Of a stretch of DNA of 64,000 bases, positions 54,763 to 63,003 are shown piece after piece. Each line of letters opens with the position of its first letter. The first letter of the stretch is position 1. Source of the DNA: Micromonospora sp. NBC_01813. Its GTDB lineage: Bacteria > Actinomycetota > Actinomycetes > Mycobacteriales > Micromonosporaceae. The stretch covers positions 2,665,001 to 2,729,000 of the forward strand of contig NZ_CP109067.1 of assembly GCF_035917335.1 (NCBI RefSeq), written 5' to 3'. Made by a program: the position numbers and the translations under genes. The notes beneath the pieces were generated by a model, which did not search any database, was not told the origin of the DNA, and worked only from the letters and a program-made list of their open reading frames with translations.

Positions 54763-54938
54763 ACCGCTCGGCCCCTCGACGCCGCCCGCGCTGGCCGCTC
54801 GACCCTCGACGGCCACCGGACCGCCGGGACACGAACCTGGCCCCACGCCGGGTCGGATGCCGCCGTGGTCGTACCCGTGGGGCAGGATGCAACCCGTGGG
54901 AACGAAGCAACGCGATATACAGCAACCAGGGCATCACC

Positions 54939-56687
54939 ATGAGTGAGGACGTGCCGCCGGGCACCCCGGTCGGCCGGGTGCTCGGCACCGCCGACGCCAC
55001 CCCGCTGCAGTTCTGGACGGCGGTCGGCGCGGGCAGCTACCTGCAACTCGACGACGTCGTGGTGACCCGTCGGGAGTTGCCGGGCGGGAAGACGGTCACC
55101 ATCGCCGGCGTCGTCACCCAGGTGCGCGCCCGGCACGAGGGTGCGCAGTTCGACTCCGACGTGTTCGCCATCGCCGACGGCACACTGCCCGCCCAGGTGC
55201 AGGAGGCAGCCGAGATCACCGCCACTCGGGTCGACCCGGAGATCTACGTGCCACCGGAGCCCGGTGCCCCGGTGTGGCGGGCCGAGGGCGACGCCCGCGC
55301 CCGCGCCCTGCACTTCGACCGGATGGAGCGCCGGATCCCGATGGGCACCGGCCGCGACGGCGTGCCGGTCTACCTCAACGCCGACTTCCTCGACGGCCAG
55401 CGGGGCGCCCATGTGTCGATCTCCGGCATCTCCGGGGTGGCCACCAAGACCAGCTTCGCCACGTTCCTGCTCTACTCGGTGTTCCGCTCCGGCACCCTCG
55501 GCGGCGACGCGGTCAACGCCAAAGCGCTGATCTTCAACGTCAAAGGCGAGGACCTGCTCTTCCTCGACCACCCGAACATCCGGTTGGACGAGGCGACGAC
55601 CGCCGCGTACGCCAAACTCGGCCTGCCCGCCGGCGCCTTCCCGGACGTACGGGTCTACGCACCGCCGCGCGCCGGCGACGCCTCCGGCACCCCGGACGTG
55701 ACCAGCCGGCTCGCCGGCGTGGACAGTTTCTACTGGACGGTGACCGAGTTCTGCGAGCATCGGCTGCTGCCGTACGTCTTCGCCGACGCCGACGACGAAC
55801 GCCAGCAGTACACGATGGTGGTCCACGCGGTCACCGCCTACCTGCACCGGCACGCCCAGCCAGCCGACGGCGGGATCAGCCTCGACGGCCGGCGCATCCA
55901 TTCCTACCCCGATCTGGTCGACCACATCGTCGACCAGCTCGGCGACGAGGAGACCCGGTCGACCTGGGCCGGCTCGGCGGTCGGCATGGGTACGGTCAAC
56001 GCCTTCGCCCGCCGGCTGATCGGCAGCAAACGCGACCTGGCCCGACTGATCCGCGGCGACCTGGCCACCCGACGGCCGCACCAGATCAACACCACGGAGA
56101 GTGCCCAGGTCACCGTGGTGGACCTGCACAACCTGCCGGACCGGGCGCAGCGGTTCGTGGTCGGGGTGACGCTCAAGGGCGAGTTCGAGCGTAAGGAGCG
56201 GGCCGGCACCGCCAAACCGCTGCTGTTCGTGGTGCTCGACGAGTTGAACAAGTACGCCCCACGGGACGGCTCCTCCCCCATCAAGGAGGTGCTGCTCGAC
56301 ATCGCCGAGCGGGGTCGCTCCCTCGGCGTGATCCTGATCGGCGCCCAGCAGACCGCGAGCGAGGTGGAGCGACGGATCGTCACCAACTCGGCGGTCCGGG
56401 TCGTCGGCCGGCTCGATCCTGCCGAGGCGTCCCGGCCGGAGTACGGCTTCCTGCCGGCGGTGCAGCGCCAGCGGGTGCTGCTGGCCAAGCCCGGCACCAT
56501 GTTCGTCAACCAGCCGGACATCCCGGTGCCGCTCTGCCTGGAGTTCCCCTTCCCGGCCTGGGCCACCCGTTCGTCGGAGGCGGGTGCCGCACCGTCGGGC
56601 ACCCTGCGCTCCATCGTGCAGGCGGCCGATCCGTTTGCGGTGGTCGGCAGCCGGTCGACGATCACCGACGACGAAATCCCGTTCTGA
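54939..56687 (+). CDS. herA: HerA-like DNA-translocating ATPase
   Basis: FtsK/HerA-superfamily motor of 582 aa. The N-terminal HAS-barrel (about 8-75: VGRVLGTADATPLQFWTAVG and YLQLDDVVV) is followed by the ATPase core. The P-loop region is SGISGVATKTS (near 162-172), with one residue more than the classical GxxxxGKT and Thr before the Lys. Walker B is LLFVVLDELNKYAP, with an Arg/Gln sensor block VILIGAQQTASEVERRIV. HerA hexamers pump DNA for NurA. It is the first gene of a unit with Mre11, Rad50 and NurA homologues, ending 24 nt before the next gene. Confidence 0.85.
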   Translation: MSEDVPPGTPVGRVLGTADATPLQFWTAVGAGSYLQLDDVVVTRRELPGGKTVTIAGVVTQVRARHEGAQFDSDVFAIADGTLPAQVQEAAEITATRVDPEIYVPPEPGAPVWRAEGDARARALHFDRMERRIPMGTGRDGVPVYLNADFLDGQRGAHVSISGISGVATKTSFATFLLYSVFRSGTLGGDAVNAKALIFNVKGEDLLFLDHPNIRLDEATTAAYAKLGLPAGAFPDVRVYAPPRAGDASGTPDVTSRLAGVDSFYWTVTEFCEHRLLPYVFADADDERQQYTMVVHAVTAYLHRHAQPADGGISLDGRRIHSYPDLVDHIVDQLGDEETRSTWAGSAVGMGTVNAFARRLIGSKRDLARLIRGDLATRRPHQINTTESAQVTVVDLHNLPDRAQRFVVGVTLKGEFERKERAGTAKPLLFVVLDELNKYAPRDGSSPIKEVLLDIAERGRSLGVILIGAQQTASEVERRIVTNSAVRVVGRLDPAEASRPEYGFLPAVQRQRVLLAKPGTMFVNQPDIPVPLCLEFPFPAWATRSSEAGAAPSGTLRSIVQAADPFAVVGSRSTITDDEIPF

Positions 56688-56711
56688 CCCGAGGCCGAGG
56701 AGGTCCCCCCG

Positions 56712-57863
56712 ATGCGGATCCTGCACACCTCCGACTGGCATGTCGGCAAGGTCCTCAAGGGACAGCAGAGGCTGGCCGAGCAGATCCAGGCGCTCGGCCA
56801 GGTGGTGGAGATCGCCCGAGCCGAGCGCCCAGACCTGGTGATCGTCGCCGGTGACCTCTACGACACCTCGGCGCCGACCCCGGACGCAACCCGGGTGGTG
56901 ACCAGGGCGTTGACCGCGTTGCGCGGCACCGGCGCCGCCGTGGTGGCCATCGGCGGCAACCACGACAACGGGGCCGCGTTGGACGCGTTGCGGCCGTGGG
57001 CCGAGGCCGCCGGCATCACCCTGCGCGGCAGCGTACGGGACAATCCAGACGAACACGTCATCGACGGGGTGACCGACGGCGGCGAACGGTGGCAGCTGGC
57101 CGCGCTGCCGTTCCTGTCCCAGCGGTACGCGGTACGCGCCACCGAGATGTACCAGCTGAGCGCCGCGGAGGCCACCCAGACCTACGCCGACCATGTCAGC
57201 CGGGTCATCGCCAGATTGACCGACGGCTTCGGCGCGCCCGGCGTGATCAACCTGATCACCGCCCACCTGACCGTGGTCGGTGGGCGCTCCGGCGGCGGCG
57301 AGCGGGAGGTGCACACCGTCCTCGGGTACGCCGTACCGGCCACCGTCTTCCCGACCGGGACGCACTACGTGGCGCTGGGTCACCTGCACCGGGCCCAGCA
57401 GCTCGAGGCGCCCTGCCCGGTGCGCTACAGCGGCAGCCCGCTGGCGGTCGACTTCGGCGAGGAGGAGAACGTCGCCTCGGTCAGCGTCGTCGACGTCACC
57501 GCCAGCACCGCCGCCCGGGTACGCGAGGTGTCGGTCGCCGCCGCAACCGCGCTGCGTACCGTCCGGGGCACCCTCGAGGAGCTGGCCGCCGGCGACCACG
57601 GCGACGCCTGGCTGCGGGTCTTCATCCAGGAGGCACCCCGGGCCGGACTTCGTGAGCAGGTGCAGGAGCTGCTGCCCCGGGCGTTGGAGATACGGATCGA
57701 CCCGGAGTTCGCCCGTACCCAGCCCGGCCCCGCGCGTACCGCCCAACGCACCGGGCGGGCCCCCGGCGAGCTGTTCGCCGACTACCTCGACGCGCGCGGA
57801 CACGGCGACGACGGTGTCCGGTCCCTGTTCGACACCCTCTACGAGGAGGTGACCTCGTCGTGA
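56712..57863 (+). CDS. sbcD: SbcD/Mre11 nuclease
   Basis: Metallophosphoesterase nuclease of 383 aa. All five phosphoesterase motifs are seen: HTSDWHVGK, VAGDLYDTSAP, GGNHDNG, ITAHLTVVGG and LGHLHRAQQL, giving the two-metal active site. The C-terminal capping and Rad50-binding part follows (about 270-383). It acts with the Rad50-type protein on DNA ends and hairpins. GAGGAGG precedes the ATG. The stop overlaps the next start (GTGA). Confidence 0.93.
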   Translation: MRILHTSDWHVGKVLKGQQRLAEQIQALGQVVEIARAERPDLVIVAGDLYDTSAPTPDATRVVTRALTALRGTGAAVVAIGGNHDNGAALDALRPWAEAAGITLRGSVRDNPDEHVIDGVTDGGERWQLAALPFLSQRYAVRATEMYQLSAAEATQTYADHVSRVIARLTDGFGAPGVINLITAHLTVVGGRSGGGEREVHTVLGYAVPATVFPTGTHYVALGHLHRAQQLEAPCPVRYSGSPLAVDFGEEENVASVSVVDVTASTAARVREVSVAAATALRTVRGTLEELAAGDHGDAWLRVFIQEAPRAGLREQVQELLPRALEIRIDPEFARTQPGPARTAQRTGRAPGELFADYLDARGHGDDGVRSLFDTLYEEVTSS

Positions 57864-60364
57864 GGCCGCTGCGGCTGGACCTGGCCGGTTTCACCGTCTT
57901 CCGCGAGGAGACCACGGTCGACTTCACCGACGCCGACTTCTTCGCGCTGGTCGGGCCGACCGGATCGGGCAAGTCCAGCATCCTCGACGCGATCTGTTTC
58001 GCCCTCTACGGCCAGGTTCCCCGCTGGGGCAGCAGTCGGGGCATCGCCTCCGCGCTCGCCCCGTCCGCCAACGAGGCCAGGGTGCGACTGGTCTTCGAGA
58101 GCGCCGGCAGCCGCTACGTCGCCACCCGGGTGATCCGTCGCGACGCGCGCGGGGTGGTCAAGACCGGCAACGCCGGGCTGCAGCTGATGCCACCGGGTTT
58201 CGACGTGACCCGGCTCGACACCGGGATGAGCCCGGACGACCTCGGCGACGTGCTGGCCGGCACCCCGGCCGAGATGGAGCAGGCGGTGCTGGACGCCGTC
58301 GGGCTGCCGTACGAGCAGTTCACCACCTGCGTGCTGCTGCCCCAGGGCCGGTTCGCGGACTTCCTGCACGCCAAACCGGCCACCCGCCAGCAGATCCTGG
58401 TCAACCTGCTCGGGCTGCACGTCTACGAACGGATCCAGAAACAGGCCACCGCACGGGCGACCACCGCGGAAGCGGCGGTCGCGGCCGTCGATCAGCTGCT
58501 CGGCGGTCTGGCCGACGCCGACGCCGCGGCGGTCGACGCCGCGGTGACCCAACTTGACGCGATCCGGACCCTGACGGCGGCGGTCGAGGCGGCCCTCCCG
58601 GAGCTGGAACAGGCACACCGGACGGTGGCGAGCGCGACCGACCAGGTCACCGGGCTCGACGGCGACATCGGCCTGCTCGGCCGGGTCGAGCCGCCGGCGG
58701 CCGCCGCCGCGCTGGCCGGCGAGGTGGCGACGGCCCGGGCCACTGCCGCCGAGGCGGAGCAGGCCGTCACCGTCGCCGAGGAACGCGAGGAGAAGATCCG
58801 CGCCGAGTTGGCCGCCGCCGGTGACCCGGCCACCCTGCGACTGCTGGTGCAGGCCCACGCCGAACGGGACCGGGTCGCCGCCGAATCGGCCGAACTGGCC
58901 CCGGTGGTGGCCTCGGCGCAGACCGAGCACGAGGCGAGCGTCGCGGCGCTCCGGACGGCACGCGCGGCCGCCGCCACGGCCGACGCGGAACTGGAGCAGG
59001 CCCGCCGGGCGTACCAGGAGGCGCAGACCGCCGACCTGGCGGCGGCGCTGCGCCACGACCTGGCGGCCGGCGACGACTGCCCCGTCTGCGAACGCCCGGT
59101 CGGCGTCGTTCCGGCGGTCCCGGCCGGTTCCCGGGTCGCCGAGGCGAAAGCCGCCGGGCAGGTCGCACGGGCCACCGCCGACCGGGCGCAACAGCAGGTC
59201 ACCGCCGCCGAGCAGGCGGTCCGGGAGGTCGAACGCGCCCTCGACCGGGCCCGGGTGCGGGCCGAGCAGCTCGGCGTCCGGCTGGCCCAGCTCGACACCG
59301 AGCTGTCCGCGTCCCCCGGTGTCGAGGCGGTACGGGCCGAGCTGGCTGGCGTCGACCGGCTGCAGAGCTCGCTCGACGACGCGGGTGGCAAGGTACGCCG
59401 CGCCCGGGAGGCCGCCCGTCGGTCCCAACGTGCCGCCGTCGCCGACGAGCAACGGCTACAGACGGCGTGGCGGGAGTTCGATGCCGTCCGGGACACCGTC
59501 GCCCGGCTGGCGCCACCGGCGACCGACCGCTCCGACCTGGCCACCGCCTGGACGCAGCTCGCCGGCTGGGCACAGGAGCTGGCCGCCGACCGCCGCGCGG
59601 CCCGGGTCACCGCGGACGCCGAGCTGTCCGCCGCTCGGGCGGCGGCCGACAGCGTCGGCGCGCGCGCCGACGAACTGTTCGTCGCCGCCGGTCTGCGCCC
59701 GCCCGGCGCGGACAGTTCCGGGACGCCGCAGCCGGCCGAGTACCGGCAGGCCGCCGCGTTGGCGGTGCAGCGGGCGCAGAGCGAACACGACCGGGTCGTC
59801 GAACGGTTCGCCCAGGCCGGTGAGCTGCGCCAGCGGCGGGCGGAACAGGAGCGTTCCGCCCAGGTGGCCCGGACGCTGGCGGGGCATCTGCGGGCGAACA
59901 ACTTCGAACGGTGGCTGCTGGTCGAAGCGTTGGACCTGCTGGTGGACGGGGCTTCGCTGATCCTGCGGGAGCTGTCCAGCGGGCAGTACGAACTCGTCCA
60001 CGACGCCGGCGAGTTCTTCGTCGTCGACCATCACGACGCCGGGCTGCGCCGCGGGGTGCGTACCCTGTCCGGCGGCGAGACCTTCCAGGCGTCGCTGGCA
60101 CTGGCGTTGGCGCTGTCCGAGCAGCTGGCCGGGATGTCGACCAGCGCGGCGAGCCTGGAGTCGATCGTGCTCGACGAGGGATTCGGATCGCTGGACGCCG
60201 CGACGCTGGACACCGTCGCGGCGACCCTCGAAGGACTGGCCGCCCGGGGGGACCGGATGGTCGGGCTGGTCACCCACGTCCCGGCGCTGGCCGAACGGGT
60301 ACCGGTGCGGTTCGAGGTACGCAAGGACGCCCGGACGGCGTCGGTACACCGGAGCGGAATGTGA
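57860..60364 (+). CDS. sbcC: SbcC/Rad50 SMC-type ATPase
   Basis: Rad50-type ATPase of 834 aa. Walker A is GPTGSGKSSILDAI (from 32); long coiled coils flank a zinc hook CPVC (407-410); the signature is LSGGETFQASLALALALSEQ (from about 736); and Walker B is SIVLDEGFGSLD (about 770-780). It is shorter than the E. coli protein (1048 aa) because of shorter coils, as in many actinobacteria. It dimerises through the hook and clamps DNA for Mre11. The GTG start overlaps the sbcD stop, and its own stop overlaps the nurA start. Confidence 0.93.
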   Translation: MRPLRLDLAGFTVFREETTVDFTDADFFALVGPTGSGKSSILDAICFALYGQVPRWGSSRGIASALAPSANEARVRLVFESAGSRYVATRVIRRDARGVVKTGNAGLQLMPPGFDVTRLDTGMSPDDLGDVLAGTPAEMEQAVLDAVGLPYEQFTTCVLLPQGRFADFLHAKPATRQQILVNLLGLHVYERIQKQATARATTAEAAVAAVDQLLGGLADADAAAVDAAVTQLDAIRTLTAAVEAALPELEQAHRTVASATDQVTGLDGDIGLLGRVEPPAAAAALAGEVATARATAAEAEQAVTVAEEREEKIRAELAAAGDPATLRLLVQAHAERDRVAAESAELAPVVASAQTEHEASVAALRTARAAAATADAELEQARRAYQEAQTADLAAALRHDLAAGDDCPVCERPVGVVPAVPAGSRVAEAKAAGQVARATADRAQQQVTAAEQAVREVERALDRARVRAEQLGVRLAQLDTELSASPGVEAVRAELAGVDRLQSSLDDAGGKVRRAREAARRSQRAAVADEQRLQTAWREFDAVRDTVARLAPPATDRSDLATAWTQLAGWAQELAADRRAARVTADAELSAARAAADSVGARADELFVAAGLRPPGADSSGTPQPAEYRQAAALAVQRAQSEHDRVVERFAQAGELRQRRAEQERSAQVARTLAGHLRANNFERWLLVEALDLLVDGASLILRELSSGQYELVHDAGEFFVVDHHDAGLRRGVRTLSGGETFQASLALALALSEQLAGMSTSAASLESIVLDEGFGSLDAATLDTVAATLEGLAARGDRMVGLVTHVPALAERVPVRFEVRKDARTASVHRSGM

Positions 60365-61362
60365 CCGCCGCGACGACGCAGCAGCCGGCCGGCGGCGTCC
60401 GCTGGTTCGTCGAAGGGTGGCAGCCCGGCTACGGTACGTCGTTCGAGGCGCCGGATCCGGGGGGTCCGGCCGCGACGGACGACAGCCAGGACGCCGCCGA
60501 TCTCGCAGTGGAGCTGGACCCGGCGGCGTGGCAGGCGTTGCGCCAGCCAGCCGATGTCCGGGCACCGGACGTGGTGCTGCTGGTCGACGGGGTACGCCGG
60601 ATCGACGCTTCACTGTGGAGCGACGAGCCGGACGGGGTCTCCTACCCGGCCGTGGCGGCCTCGTACGCCGCCGGGGTGGTCCGGTGTGACCTGCGCCGGG
60701 GAGCGGCGACGTTGGCCGGAGCCCGCCCGGAGCGCGGCCTGTTCACCCCGAACGCCGCCGCGACCGACCTGACCATCGGACAGATCCGCTACCCGGCGCG
60801 GCGGGTCGACCACGCGGACCCGGCGACCCTGGCGCAGGCGGTGCAGCCGGCGCTGGCCGCGCTGGAGATCGCCGTGTCCGAGCAGGCCCGTGCCGATGCC
60901 GGCGCCGACGACGAACTGCTGGTGGTCGACGGTCCGCTACGCGGACGGCAGCTGCCGAACACCGTCGGATACGTCAAGTCGCACAGCCGCACGTACCTGC
61001 CGGCGAGCCTGATGCCGGTGGTGACCGGGCTGCGACCGGCCGAACGGAGCCCGGTGTTCCTGCACGGCACCCGGTGGCGCAACTACTCGTGGTATCTACG
61101 GCTGCCCGGGCCCCGCGGCGCGCCCTGGGCGGGGATCGTCCGGGTGGAGTGCCGACCCGACGTCACCGCGCAGGCGGCGATCGCGTTGGCCGATCTGTCC
61201 CTGGCCGCGCTGCCCCGGTTCGCCTCGACGCCGTACAAGGATCCACGGGCACCGCAGAACCTCGTGCCGATCGCCGGACTGGAACGGCGGCTTCGGGCGA
61301 TGCTCGGCGACGCCCGGCTGCTGCACCGGGCGTTGAGCCTCGGGGCTGCCCGGCCATACTGA
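60361..61362 (+). CDS. nurA: NurA-type nuclease domain protein
   Basis: Predicted 5'-3' DNA nuclease of 333 aa with the RNase H-like NurA fold. Seen: the first acidic motif LLVDGVRRIDA (Asp76), a second VVDGPLRGRQ (Asp190), GYVKSHSRTYLP, the strand WYLRLPGPRGAPWAGIVRVE, and the closing motif PRAPQNLVPIAGLERRLR. That order matches NurA. Position directly after the Rad50 gene, with a 4-nt overlap, and HerA in the same unit strongly support the call. The frame is open well upstream inside sbcC; the GTG at 60361 is chosen for the overlap. Confidence 0.8.
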   Translation: MTAATTQQPAGGVRWFVEGWQPGYGTSFEAPDPGGPAATDDSQDAADLAVELDPAAWQALRQPADVRAPDVVLLVDGVRRIDASLWSDEPDGVSYPAVAASYAAGVVRCDLRRGAATLAGARPERGLFTPNAAATDLTIGQIRYPARRVDHADPATLAQAVQPALAALEIAVSEQARADAGADDELLVVDGPLRGRQLPNTVGYVKSHSRTYLPASLMPVVTGLRPAERSPVFLHGTRWRNYSWYLRLPGPRGAPWAGIVRVECRPDVTAQAAIALADLSLAALPRFASTPYKDPRAPQNLVPIAGLERRLRAMLGDARLLHRALSLGAARPY

Positions 61363-62307: not shown

Positions 62308-63003
62308 ATGTACGCGGTCGCAAGCGGCTGGCAGGCGGAATCGGTCCGGCCAGGCGTAACCGGCAGCAGGTCGCGCGGCACCGGGACCACGCAACGTTGG
62401 CAGACCATCGACGGGAGGGCGGCCGAGCGCGATGATGAGCCGGTGACGCCACGGACCACCCACAGCCGGCACCAGGCCGGGATGCCGGAGTCCAGCCATG
62501 GGGACGAACTCGTCCGTACGCTCTACGCGGAGCACGCCCGGCCGTTGCTGGGTTTCGTGCTCCGGCTGACCGGGGGGGACCGGCAGCGGGCGGAAGACAT
62601 CGTCCAGGAGACACTGCTACGGGCGTGGCGCAACGCCCACCGGCTCGGTGCGCAGGGCCAGGCGTCGTTGCGACCCTGGTTGGTCACCGTGGCCCGGCGG
62701 ATCGCCATCGACGATCACCGCAGTGAGAAGGCCAGACCGACCGAAGAGTACGACCGGGACCTGGAGAGTTTCGCCGAATCCGACGGCACCGACCAGGTGC
62801 TGCGTCAGATGACCGTCACCGATGCGATGCGGACACTGAGTCAGCCGCATCGGGAGATCCTGGTCGAGACCTACTTCCGAGGCCGGACCGTGCCCGAGGC
62901 GGCCGCCGAGCTGGGACTGCCATTGGGCACCGCGAAGTCGCGGGTCTACTACGCGCTACGAGCGCTGCGGACGGCGCTGCAACAGCGGGGGGTTACAGAA
63001 TGA
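62308..63003 (+). CDS. ECF-type RNA polymerase sigma factor
   Basis: Extracytoplasmic-function sigma factor. Region 2 is LYAEHARPLLGFVLRLTGGD with AEDIVQETLLRAWRN; region 4 is LSQPHREILVETYFRGRTVP followed by GTAKSRVYYALRAL. The start is uncertain: ATG 62308 has a perfect GGAGG 7 nt upstream but adds about 58 residues with no recognisable domain, whereas GTG 62443 or ATG 62482 gives the usual length near 175-185 aa but weak ribosome sites. The stop overlaps the anti-sigma start (ATGA). Confidence 0.88.
   Translation: MYAVASGWQAESVRPGVTGSRSRGTGTTQRWQTIDGRAAERDDEPVTPRTTHSRHQAGMPESSHGDELVRTLYAEHARPLLGFVLRLTGGDRQRAEDIVQETLLRAWRNAHRLGAQGQASLRPWLVTVARRIAIDDHRSEKARPTEEYDRDLESFAESDGTDQVLRQMTVTDAMRTLSQPHREILVETYFRGRTVPEAAAELGLPLGTAKSRVYYALRALRTALQQRGVTE

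Follow-up and report, generated by a model that had tools for sequence, protein, structure and literature searches.

The 64,000-nucleotide stretch of the Micromonospora sp. NBC_01813 genome analyzed here (contig NZ_CP109067.1, positions 2,665,001 to 2,729,000; hereafter the window) contains four adjacent genes, herA, sbcD, sbcC, and nurA (window positions 54939..61362), which probably form a bacterial operon for the processing of double-strand DNA ends, a core repair module that would be induced by DNA damage through LexA-independent PafBC/RecA-NDp control and act beside AdnAB. What was observed is the presence of the four genes with conserved linkage and catalytic residues, an SbcD of a distinct lineage, and an element like that of recA upstream of herA. 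From these features we infer that the four proteins may work as one joint machine.

An initial annotation of the locus had described an archaeal-style resection operon of four tightly packed genes, and all four open reading frames (ORFs) were confirmed at the positions it gave. They lie on the plus strand, with a 24-nt gap between herA and sbcD and 4-nt overlaps between sbcD and sbcC and between sbcC and nurA. Residue conservation was assessed in alignments of 168 HerA, 152 SbcD, 130 SbcC, and 132 NurA sequences, each including the window protein; sequences outside 0.8–1.6 times the window length and low-identity loci were excluded.

The herA gene (54939..56687) encodes a Deinococcus-type HerA hexameric ATPase/translocase of 582 residues, which matched Deinococcus HerA (Protein Data Bank (PDB) chain 7f6d_B) with 489.3 bits; residues 10–548 aligned in two stretches, the N-terminal part included. 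Residues T169-K170-T171, D434-E435, R458, and R460 are identical in all 168 sequences, and we take R458 and R460 to be candidates for the HerA arginine finger. The Walker A motif (residues 163–171, GISGVATKT; 55425..55451) exceeds the usual GxSGxGKT form by one residue and is identical in Deinococcus HerA, with 8 of its 9 positions conserved at 97–100%. The protein has no match to the Pfam DUF87/HerA domain (PF01935) at E≤1; since 7f6d_B is a solved HerA, this missing match was taken as divergence of HerA.

The nurA gene (60361..61362), whose GTG start overlaps the sbcC stop by 4 nt, encodes a NurA nuclease of 333 residues with an RNase H-like fold. The initial annotation had recognized it by motif order and named absence of the fold as a refutation, which did not materialize: the protein aligns to Deinococcus NurA over residues 46–325 and shares its fold. 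Its score on PF09376 is marginal (21.6 bits against a gathering score of 21), and a whole-genome search with this model failed to pick it up. D76, E169, and D190 are identical in all 132 sequences, D76 (codon 60586..60588) being assigned through the alignment to D53 of Deinococcus NurA and the other two through conservation only. The D76–D53 match depends on shifting the numbering of the PDB chain by 20 residues, a shift that was counted by hand on the assumption of a purification tag. The Deinococcus NurA D53A mutant is described as catalytically inactive (PMC4663267).

The sbcD gene (mre11; 56712..57863) encodes a bacterial SbcD nuclease of 383 residues, the sole SbcD match in its genome, which scores 168.8 bits on TIGR00619, above the cut-off, versus 52.6 bits on the best archaeal Mre11 model. 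Its residues D8, H10, D48, N83, H84, H185, H224, and H226 are conserved at 99–100%. The sbcC gene (rad50; 57860..60364) encodes an SMC-like ATPase of 834 residues with a CPVC zinc hook (residues 407–410; 59078..59089). It scores 265 bits on TIGR00618, below the cut-off of 478.5, and is shorter than the 1043 model positions. Conservation reaches 96–98% in its Walker A motif, 98% at Q162, and 100% in the LSGGE signature (736–740), at D772/E773, and at the hook cysteines C407 and C410. Across the four alignments, conservation is 95–100% for the Walker motifs, the phosphoesterase ligands, the ABC signature and hook cysteines of SbcC, and the acidic residues of NurA, and all four proteins therefore look catalytically active. 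The archaeal label does not suit them: for HerA and NurA, the matches to Deinococcus proteins are far better than those to archaeal models (only 12 bits for HerA on the archaeal HerA model), and SbcD and SbcC score as bacterial SbcCD. It should be dropped for the proteins and kept as a functional analogy.

The linkage of the four genes is strongly conserved. NurA was found in 39 of the 61 nearest genomes, comprising 36 of 37 Micromonosporaceae and 3 of 24 from the rest of the order; the single Micromonosporaceae genome without it is 80% complete. Loci were fetched from 35 of the 38 other NurA genomes (G008, G011, and G025 were left out; 3 of the 35 belong to other families), and 34 of them carry the complete set on a single strand in the order herA-sbcD-sbcC-nurA; the remaining one stops at a contig edge. 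Separation of the genes in close relatives, the other refutation named by the initial annotation, was thus not seen, and with NurA so widespread in the family the operon is nothing exceptional.

Co-occurrence is also seen elsewhere in the Actinobacteria. HerA was matched in 108 of 296 genomes in an even sample of the phylum, and 60 loci were read. All four genes lie on the same strand in 41 of them, corresponding to 41 of 52 when the eight loci with HerA less than 37% identical are left out. These 41 loci show two gene orders, nurA-herA-sbcD-sbcC (26) and herA-sbcD-sbcC-nurA (15). The other 19 comprise nine with a contig end at most 7 kb downstream, eight from a distant HerA clade, and two with HerA alone (L096 and L099). 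Among the best 80 loci of a scan of named genomes, on which its counts rest, 59 have the four genes on the same strand, 18 end at most 7 kb downstream, and three are others: L183 and L184, with neither sbcD nor nurA nearby, and L190, which stops just past sbcC. The named genomes nearest to the window, mostly at 82–89% HerA identity, belong to Micromonospora, Salinispora, Actinoplanes, and Plantactinospora. The distant clade, with HerA less than 37% identical (L134–L138 and L145–L147; 7 of 8 from family f32), has an SbcC-like stretch (24–27%) in 7 of its 8 loci, an SbcD-like match in L136, and a weak NurA-like match in L134, and is possibly a different HerA system.

The chromosomal surroundings recur as well. 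With the window left out, a RibD-type reductase gene accompanies the operon in 27 of the 35 loci from relatives and in 44 of 47 loci from named Micromonosporaceae. The downstream methyltransferase-like gene is found in 11 of 35 and 25 of 47, and a sigma-factor-like gene in 14 of 35 and 29 of 47, with many loci ending too early to show either. None of the three occurs in any of 35 sporadic loci from other taxa. The site is mostly a stable chromosomal address in Micromonosporaceae without the look of a defense island, and the operon is a normal, conserved core part of this family and no single-strain oddity.

Sporadic copies are found in Pseudonocardia, Amycolatopsis, Frankia, Kineosporia, Streptomyces, Mycobacterium gastri, and others. 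HerA was also matched in 6 of 72,556 plasmid records, and all three that were read carry the four genes on one strand. The Streptomyces linear plasmid copy (L165; NZ_CP134205.1, 1–9779) lies back to back with Wadjet genes (JetA2, 538.5 bits; JetB2, 348.9 bits; TIGR02680) and a gene for an ImmA/IrrE-type peptidase. Its closest kin, L168, shares only the downstream helicase gene with it, and Wadjet genes are missing from the L168 flanks. In the cyanobacterium Sphaerospermopsis, the cluster on a conjugative plasmid (L167; AP018315.1, 4946–11946) has the order nurA-herA-sbcD-sbcC; its nurA is annotated as hypothetical and scores 18.5 bits on PF09376, under the cut-off. A four-gene copy in Nonomuraea is on an 11.9 Mb record filed as a plasmid. 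Because all four genes occur together on plasmid records, the module can move as a unit.

Most gene clusters common to at least 4 of the 35 sporadic loci correspond to the four operon genes or to frames overlapping them; two further clusters are shared by 8 and 4 loci, the latter lying between herA and sbcD in a Pseudonocardia example. In Kineosporia rhizophila (L185:16536-17669), a gene for an AlkZ-like DNA glycosylase lies immediately 3′ of nurA, which also hints at a role in repair.

The SbcD proteins encoded with HerA are a lineage separate from nearly all stand-alone SbcD proteins compared. For comparison, 35 stand-alone sbcDC loci from the order and the phylum were used, none of which has a HerA or NurA match within the 3.5–7.5 kb read. 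In a tree of 88 SbcD sequences, built with a quick method without bootstrap and with linked rows chosen from those available, a branch with a Shimodaira–Hasegawa-like approximate likelihood ratio test (SH-aLRT) value of 100 sets 31 of 33 stand-alone SbcD apart from the linked rows. On the linked side are the 55 rows called linked, together with L251 and L260, two stand-alone sequences on long branches. One of the linked rows (L312, genome G241) is so by assumption, its contig containing sbcD and sbcC only and HerA lying at the edge of another contig; L262 and L263 were omitted as doubtful SbcD. For both L251 and L260, HerA and NurA are not in the span read, and the L260 genome (G036) also has a linked operon.

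Identity to the window SbcD in the phylum sample is 39–48% for herA-first linked and 30–39% for nurA-first linked proteins, versus 29–40% for stand-alone SbcD of the same order (L248–L261); these ranges overlap, and identity alone therefore sets apart only the herA-first group. SbcC occurs in two lengths, about 820–850 residues in most Micromonosporaceae loci (L199–L247) and about 1,090–1,190 in most sporadic copies (L168–L198; 812 in L198), and the coiled-coil arm lengths therefore probably differ between the two size classes.

Upstream of herA lies a promoter-like element, TGGTCGTAC-N8-CAGGAT (54866..54888, plus strand), which begins 73 bases ahead of the herA start codon. Unsupervised motif discovery in 65 non-redundant upstream regions of Micromonosporaceae returned cTGTCGTAC-N8-CAGG, with an information content of 18.5 versus 8.2–8.3 in three shuffled sets, often about 70 or 20–30 bases before herA. 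The window element is the only match in the window at up to two mismatches to this family pattern (0.18 expected). The layout is that of RecA-NDp, as at recA. RecA-NDp has been described as the promoter element of PafBC (PMC8223512, PMC6789036). The recA gene of the same genome carries CTGTCGGACCCAGCGCCTAGCGT, and recA of another genome of the family (G007) carries TTGTCGTACCCAGCGCCTAGCGT. The genome also has adjacent PafB-like and PafC genes (HTH_PafC, 143.4 bits), with tatA shortly downstream, so that PafBC and a degenerate RecA-NDp-like element occur together.

A genome-wide search with the RecA-NDp consensus was rejected as too loose in this GC-rich genome (146 matches versus 44 in the reversed control), and a matrix of recA promoters was therefore used instead. 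Of 15 genomes, 13 contributed to it, with 6 distinct recA promoters among them (L405 and L406 gave no match). The window element scores 11.5 bits on this matrix, which 3 of 2000 shuffles reach. Because a RecA-NDp-like pattern had served to select the recA promoters, a high score means resemblance to these promoters and is no independent proof of PafBC binding. Scores of at least 10 bits were obtained upstream of herA in 48 of 78 Micromonosporaceae members (1.1 expected), which are related sequences and no independent draws, and in 0/38, 0/46, 2/71, 0/36, and 0/43 regions of five of the seven neighboring-gene control sets. The genome contains 28 copies of a shorter pattern, GTCGTAC-N8-CASNNT (8 of the reversed pattern), and the letters alone therefore mark no single promoter.

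A scan of 110 upstream regions for LexA sites gave 33 matches at up to two mismatches (17.1 expected from single-letter shuffles) and, in a stricter form at up to one mismatch, two matches, neither in the window. In a genome of the same order (G040), TGTCGTAC-N8-CANNNT has 99 matches (control 3), many ending in CAATCT (e.g., L357:1501-1522). One of them lies about 300 bases before a gene that appears RecQ-type helicase-like by eye and has TGTCGGACCCCGCCTCCAGACT just upstream.

In the proposed mechanism, SbcCD would recognize a DNA end and open or clean it, blocked or hairpinned ends above all. A HerA hexamer would then be loaded and pump the duplex toward a bound NurA dimer, which would degrade the strands and leave a tail for RecA. 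The initial annotation had likewise proposed a resection machine; such a role fits the data, and the upstream element adds evidence of damage control, while joint action of the four proteins is the part that goes beyond what was observed. Its contrast with AdnAB does not amount to an either/or. The genome encodes an AdnAB-type UvrD–PDDEXK pair at another locus, which rules out the operon as the sole resection machine; because of this pair, the operon machine would be an addition to AdnAB and no substitute.

Several observations weigh against this proposal. L096 and L099 have HerA without sbcD in the span read; on the contig and strand of herA, their nearest SbcD follows at a distance of about 11 and 14 kb. 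No sbcD is found in the 5–6 kb read downstream in L120 and L123 or in about 6 kb in L233 before the respective contig ends, nor in at least 7 kb downstream in L183 and L184, where nurA is also not nearby. At the promoter, 30 of the 78 family members have no match at 10 bits, and among 30 sporadic copies, again related sequences and no independent draws, a minority of nine carry the element (0.4 expected). Two of the seven control sets also have a fair share of matches (9 of 28 regions for the gene at 63000, and 6 of 94 ahead of nurA, where the region lies within sbcC), and a third has 2 of 71. The window element fits the strict RecA-NDp consensus at 7 of 12 positions only, and DNA-damage control of the operon through PafBC/RecA-NDp is therefore a strong hint, not proof. 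In Deinococcus, HerA–NurA is described as adding little to radioresistance (PMC4663267).

The exceptions in linkage would suit a reading in which two separate enzymes share one promoter, with SbcCD cleaving hairpins or blocked ends and HerA–NurA doing another job, such as helping RecJ or handling chromosomes, and no joint machine formed. We consider this rather unlikely. Besides the distant SbcD genes of L096 and L099, gaps of 0.6–4.2 kb between herA and sbcD in 12 of 95 relative and phylum loci speak for it, as does the reported stimulation of RecJ by Deinococcus HerA, which NurA blocks (PMC4663267). Against it stand the linkage, which is kept in both gene orders and on plasmids from two different phyla, and the separate lineage formed by the linked SbcD proteins. 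A fifth component was sought by eye in 14 gapped loci (12 herA/sbcD and 2 sbcC/nurA), and no recurrent partner was seen; the ORFs vary by locus, except that L100 and L104, from one family, share a secreted-protein-like ORF. In the herA/sbcD gap of L102 (5730-6218), a short ORF appears by eye to encode a small metallophosphoesterase-like protein.

A defense role, which the initial annotation had also raised, would have HerA–NurA and SbcCD degrade incoming linear phage or plasmid DNA. The Wadjet genes beside the L165 copy invite this idea, but the flanks of its closest kin lack them. At the window locus it is not supported: the operon occupies a mostly conserved core site, is near-universal in Micromonosporaceae, and has a recA-type promoter element upstream of herA. 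The neighboring genes examined (RibD-type, PRiA4_ORF3, and methyltransferase-like) belong to no defense families and mostly recur at the site, and PADLOC, searched for known anti-phage systems, gave partial matches for HerA, SbcD, and SbcC and none for NurA. Among 10 large neighbor ORFs from 8 of the 35 sporadic loci, four matched PADLOC models at E≤1e-10 (PDC-S27; mad3/mad8; PDC-M37B/DolB; HEAT-ARM_XIII). Pfam assigns the products of these four ORFs to AAA/DUF234, ABC-type, Clp-type AAA, and WD40 families, and no single one of them makes up a recognized complete system. Defense is accordingly improbable. A role as a DNA pump in chromosome segregation or DNA transfer, to which the nuclease would be accessory, would leave the linked SbcCD and the damage-type promoter unexplained, and we give it very little credence.

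Taken together, the locus is a real and conserved bacterial end-processing operon that is probably damage-inducible and, judging from its promoter region, may be switched on by DNA damage like recA. It is predicted to be a further member of the PafBC regulon. SbcD in Actinobacteria is no single interchangeable gene, the HerA-linked form being a separate lineage. More tentatively, we suggest a possible third actinobacterial end-resection machine beside AdnAB and RecBCD/RecFOR, consisting of a HerA–NurA motor and a dedicated SbcCD lineage, spread by mobile DNA, domesticated in Micromonosporaceae, and placed under PafBC control with recA; resection would then be initiated by SbcCD, as it is by Mre11–Rad50 in archaea and eukaryotes.

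The operon is no categorical novelty, since HerA and NurA in Actinobacteria and HerA–SbcD–SbcC linkage in Oceanithermus are already published. No paper on the four-gene actinobacterial cluster was found by title or abstract start in the open-licence literature, and older papers may mention it. HerA and NurA have reportedly also been studied in Thermus, despite a review's statement that they were studied only in D. radiodurans. That review lists both proteins as conserved in Actinobacteria, among others (PMC8708640).

Among known systems, stand-alone SbcCD of Actinomycetota comprises the same two enzymes from neighboring genes and falls largely across the branch described above. AdnAB, the mycobacterial-type helicase–nuclease, presumably also acts in end resection and belongs to a different family, with UvrD helicase and PDDEXK nuclease. 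The archaeal Mre11–Rad50–HerA–NurA operons unite the same four activities in one cluster (PMC2288612, PMC8708640), and archaeal Mre11 has been reported to bind HerA (PMC2288612); the window operon shares the four linked genes but not the archaeal-type protein families, with bacterial models and Deinococcus scoring best. In Oceanithermus profundus, a member of another phylum, bacterial sbcD and sbcC lie downstream of the HerA homologue hepA, as in the window, where nurA is the last gene, and the authors liken the hepA cluster to the archaeal system (PMC5448004). The HerA–NurA pair of Deinococcus radiodurans (PDB 7f6d; PMC9960219, PMC4663267) has a HerA with the same odd Walker A motif and a NurA of the same fold. 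There, nurA and herA were deleted together as an operon, whereas the window operon contains SbcCD, and the link of HerA–NurA to SbcCD was said to remain to be uncovered (PMC4663267). Because a large culturable family keeps the four genes together in a conserved operon whose promoter is probably damage-inducible, this question of SbcCD and HerA–NurA cooperation becomes directly testable by genetics and biochemistry, and therein lies the value of the operon.

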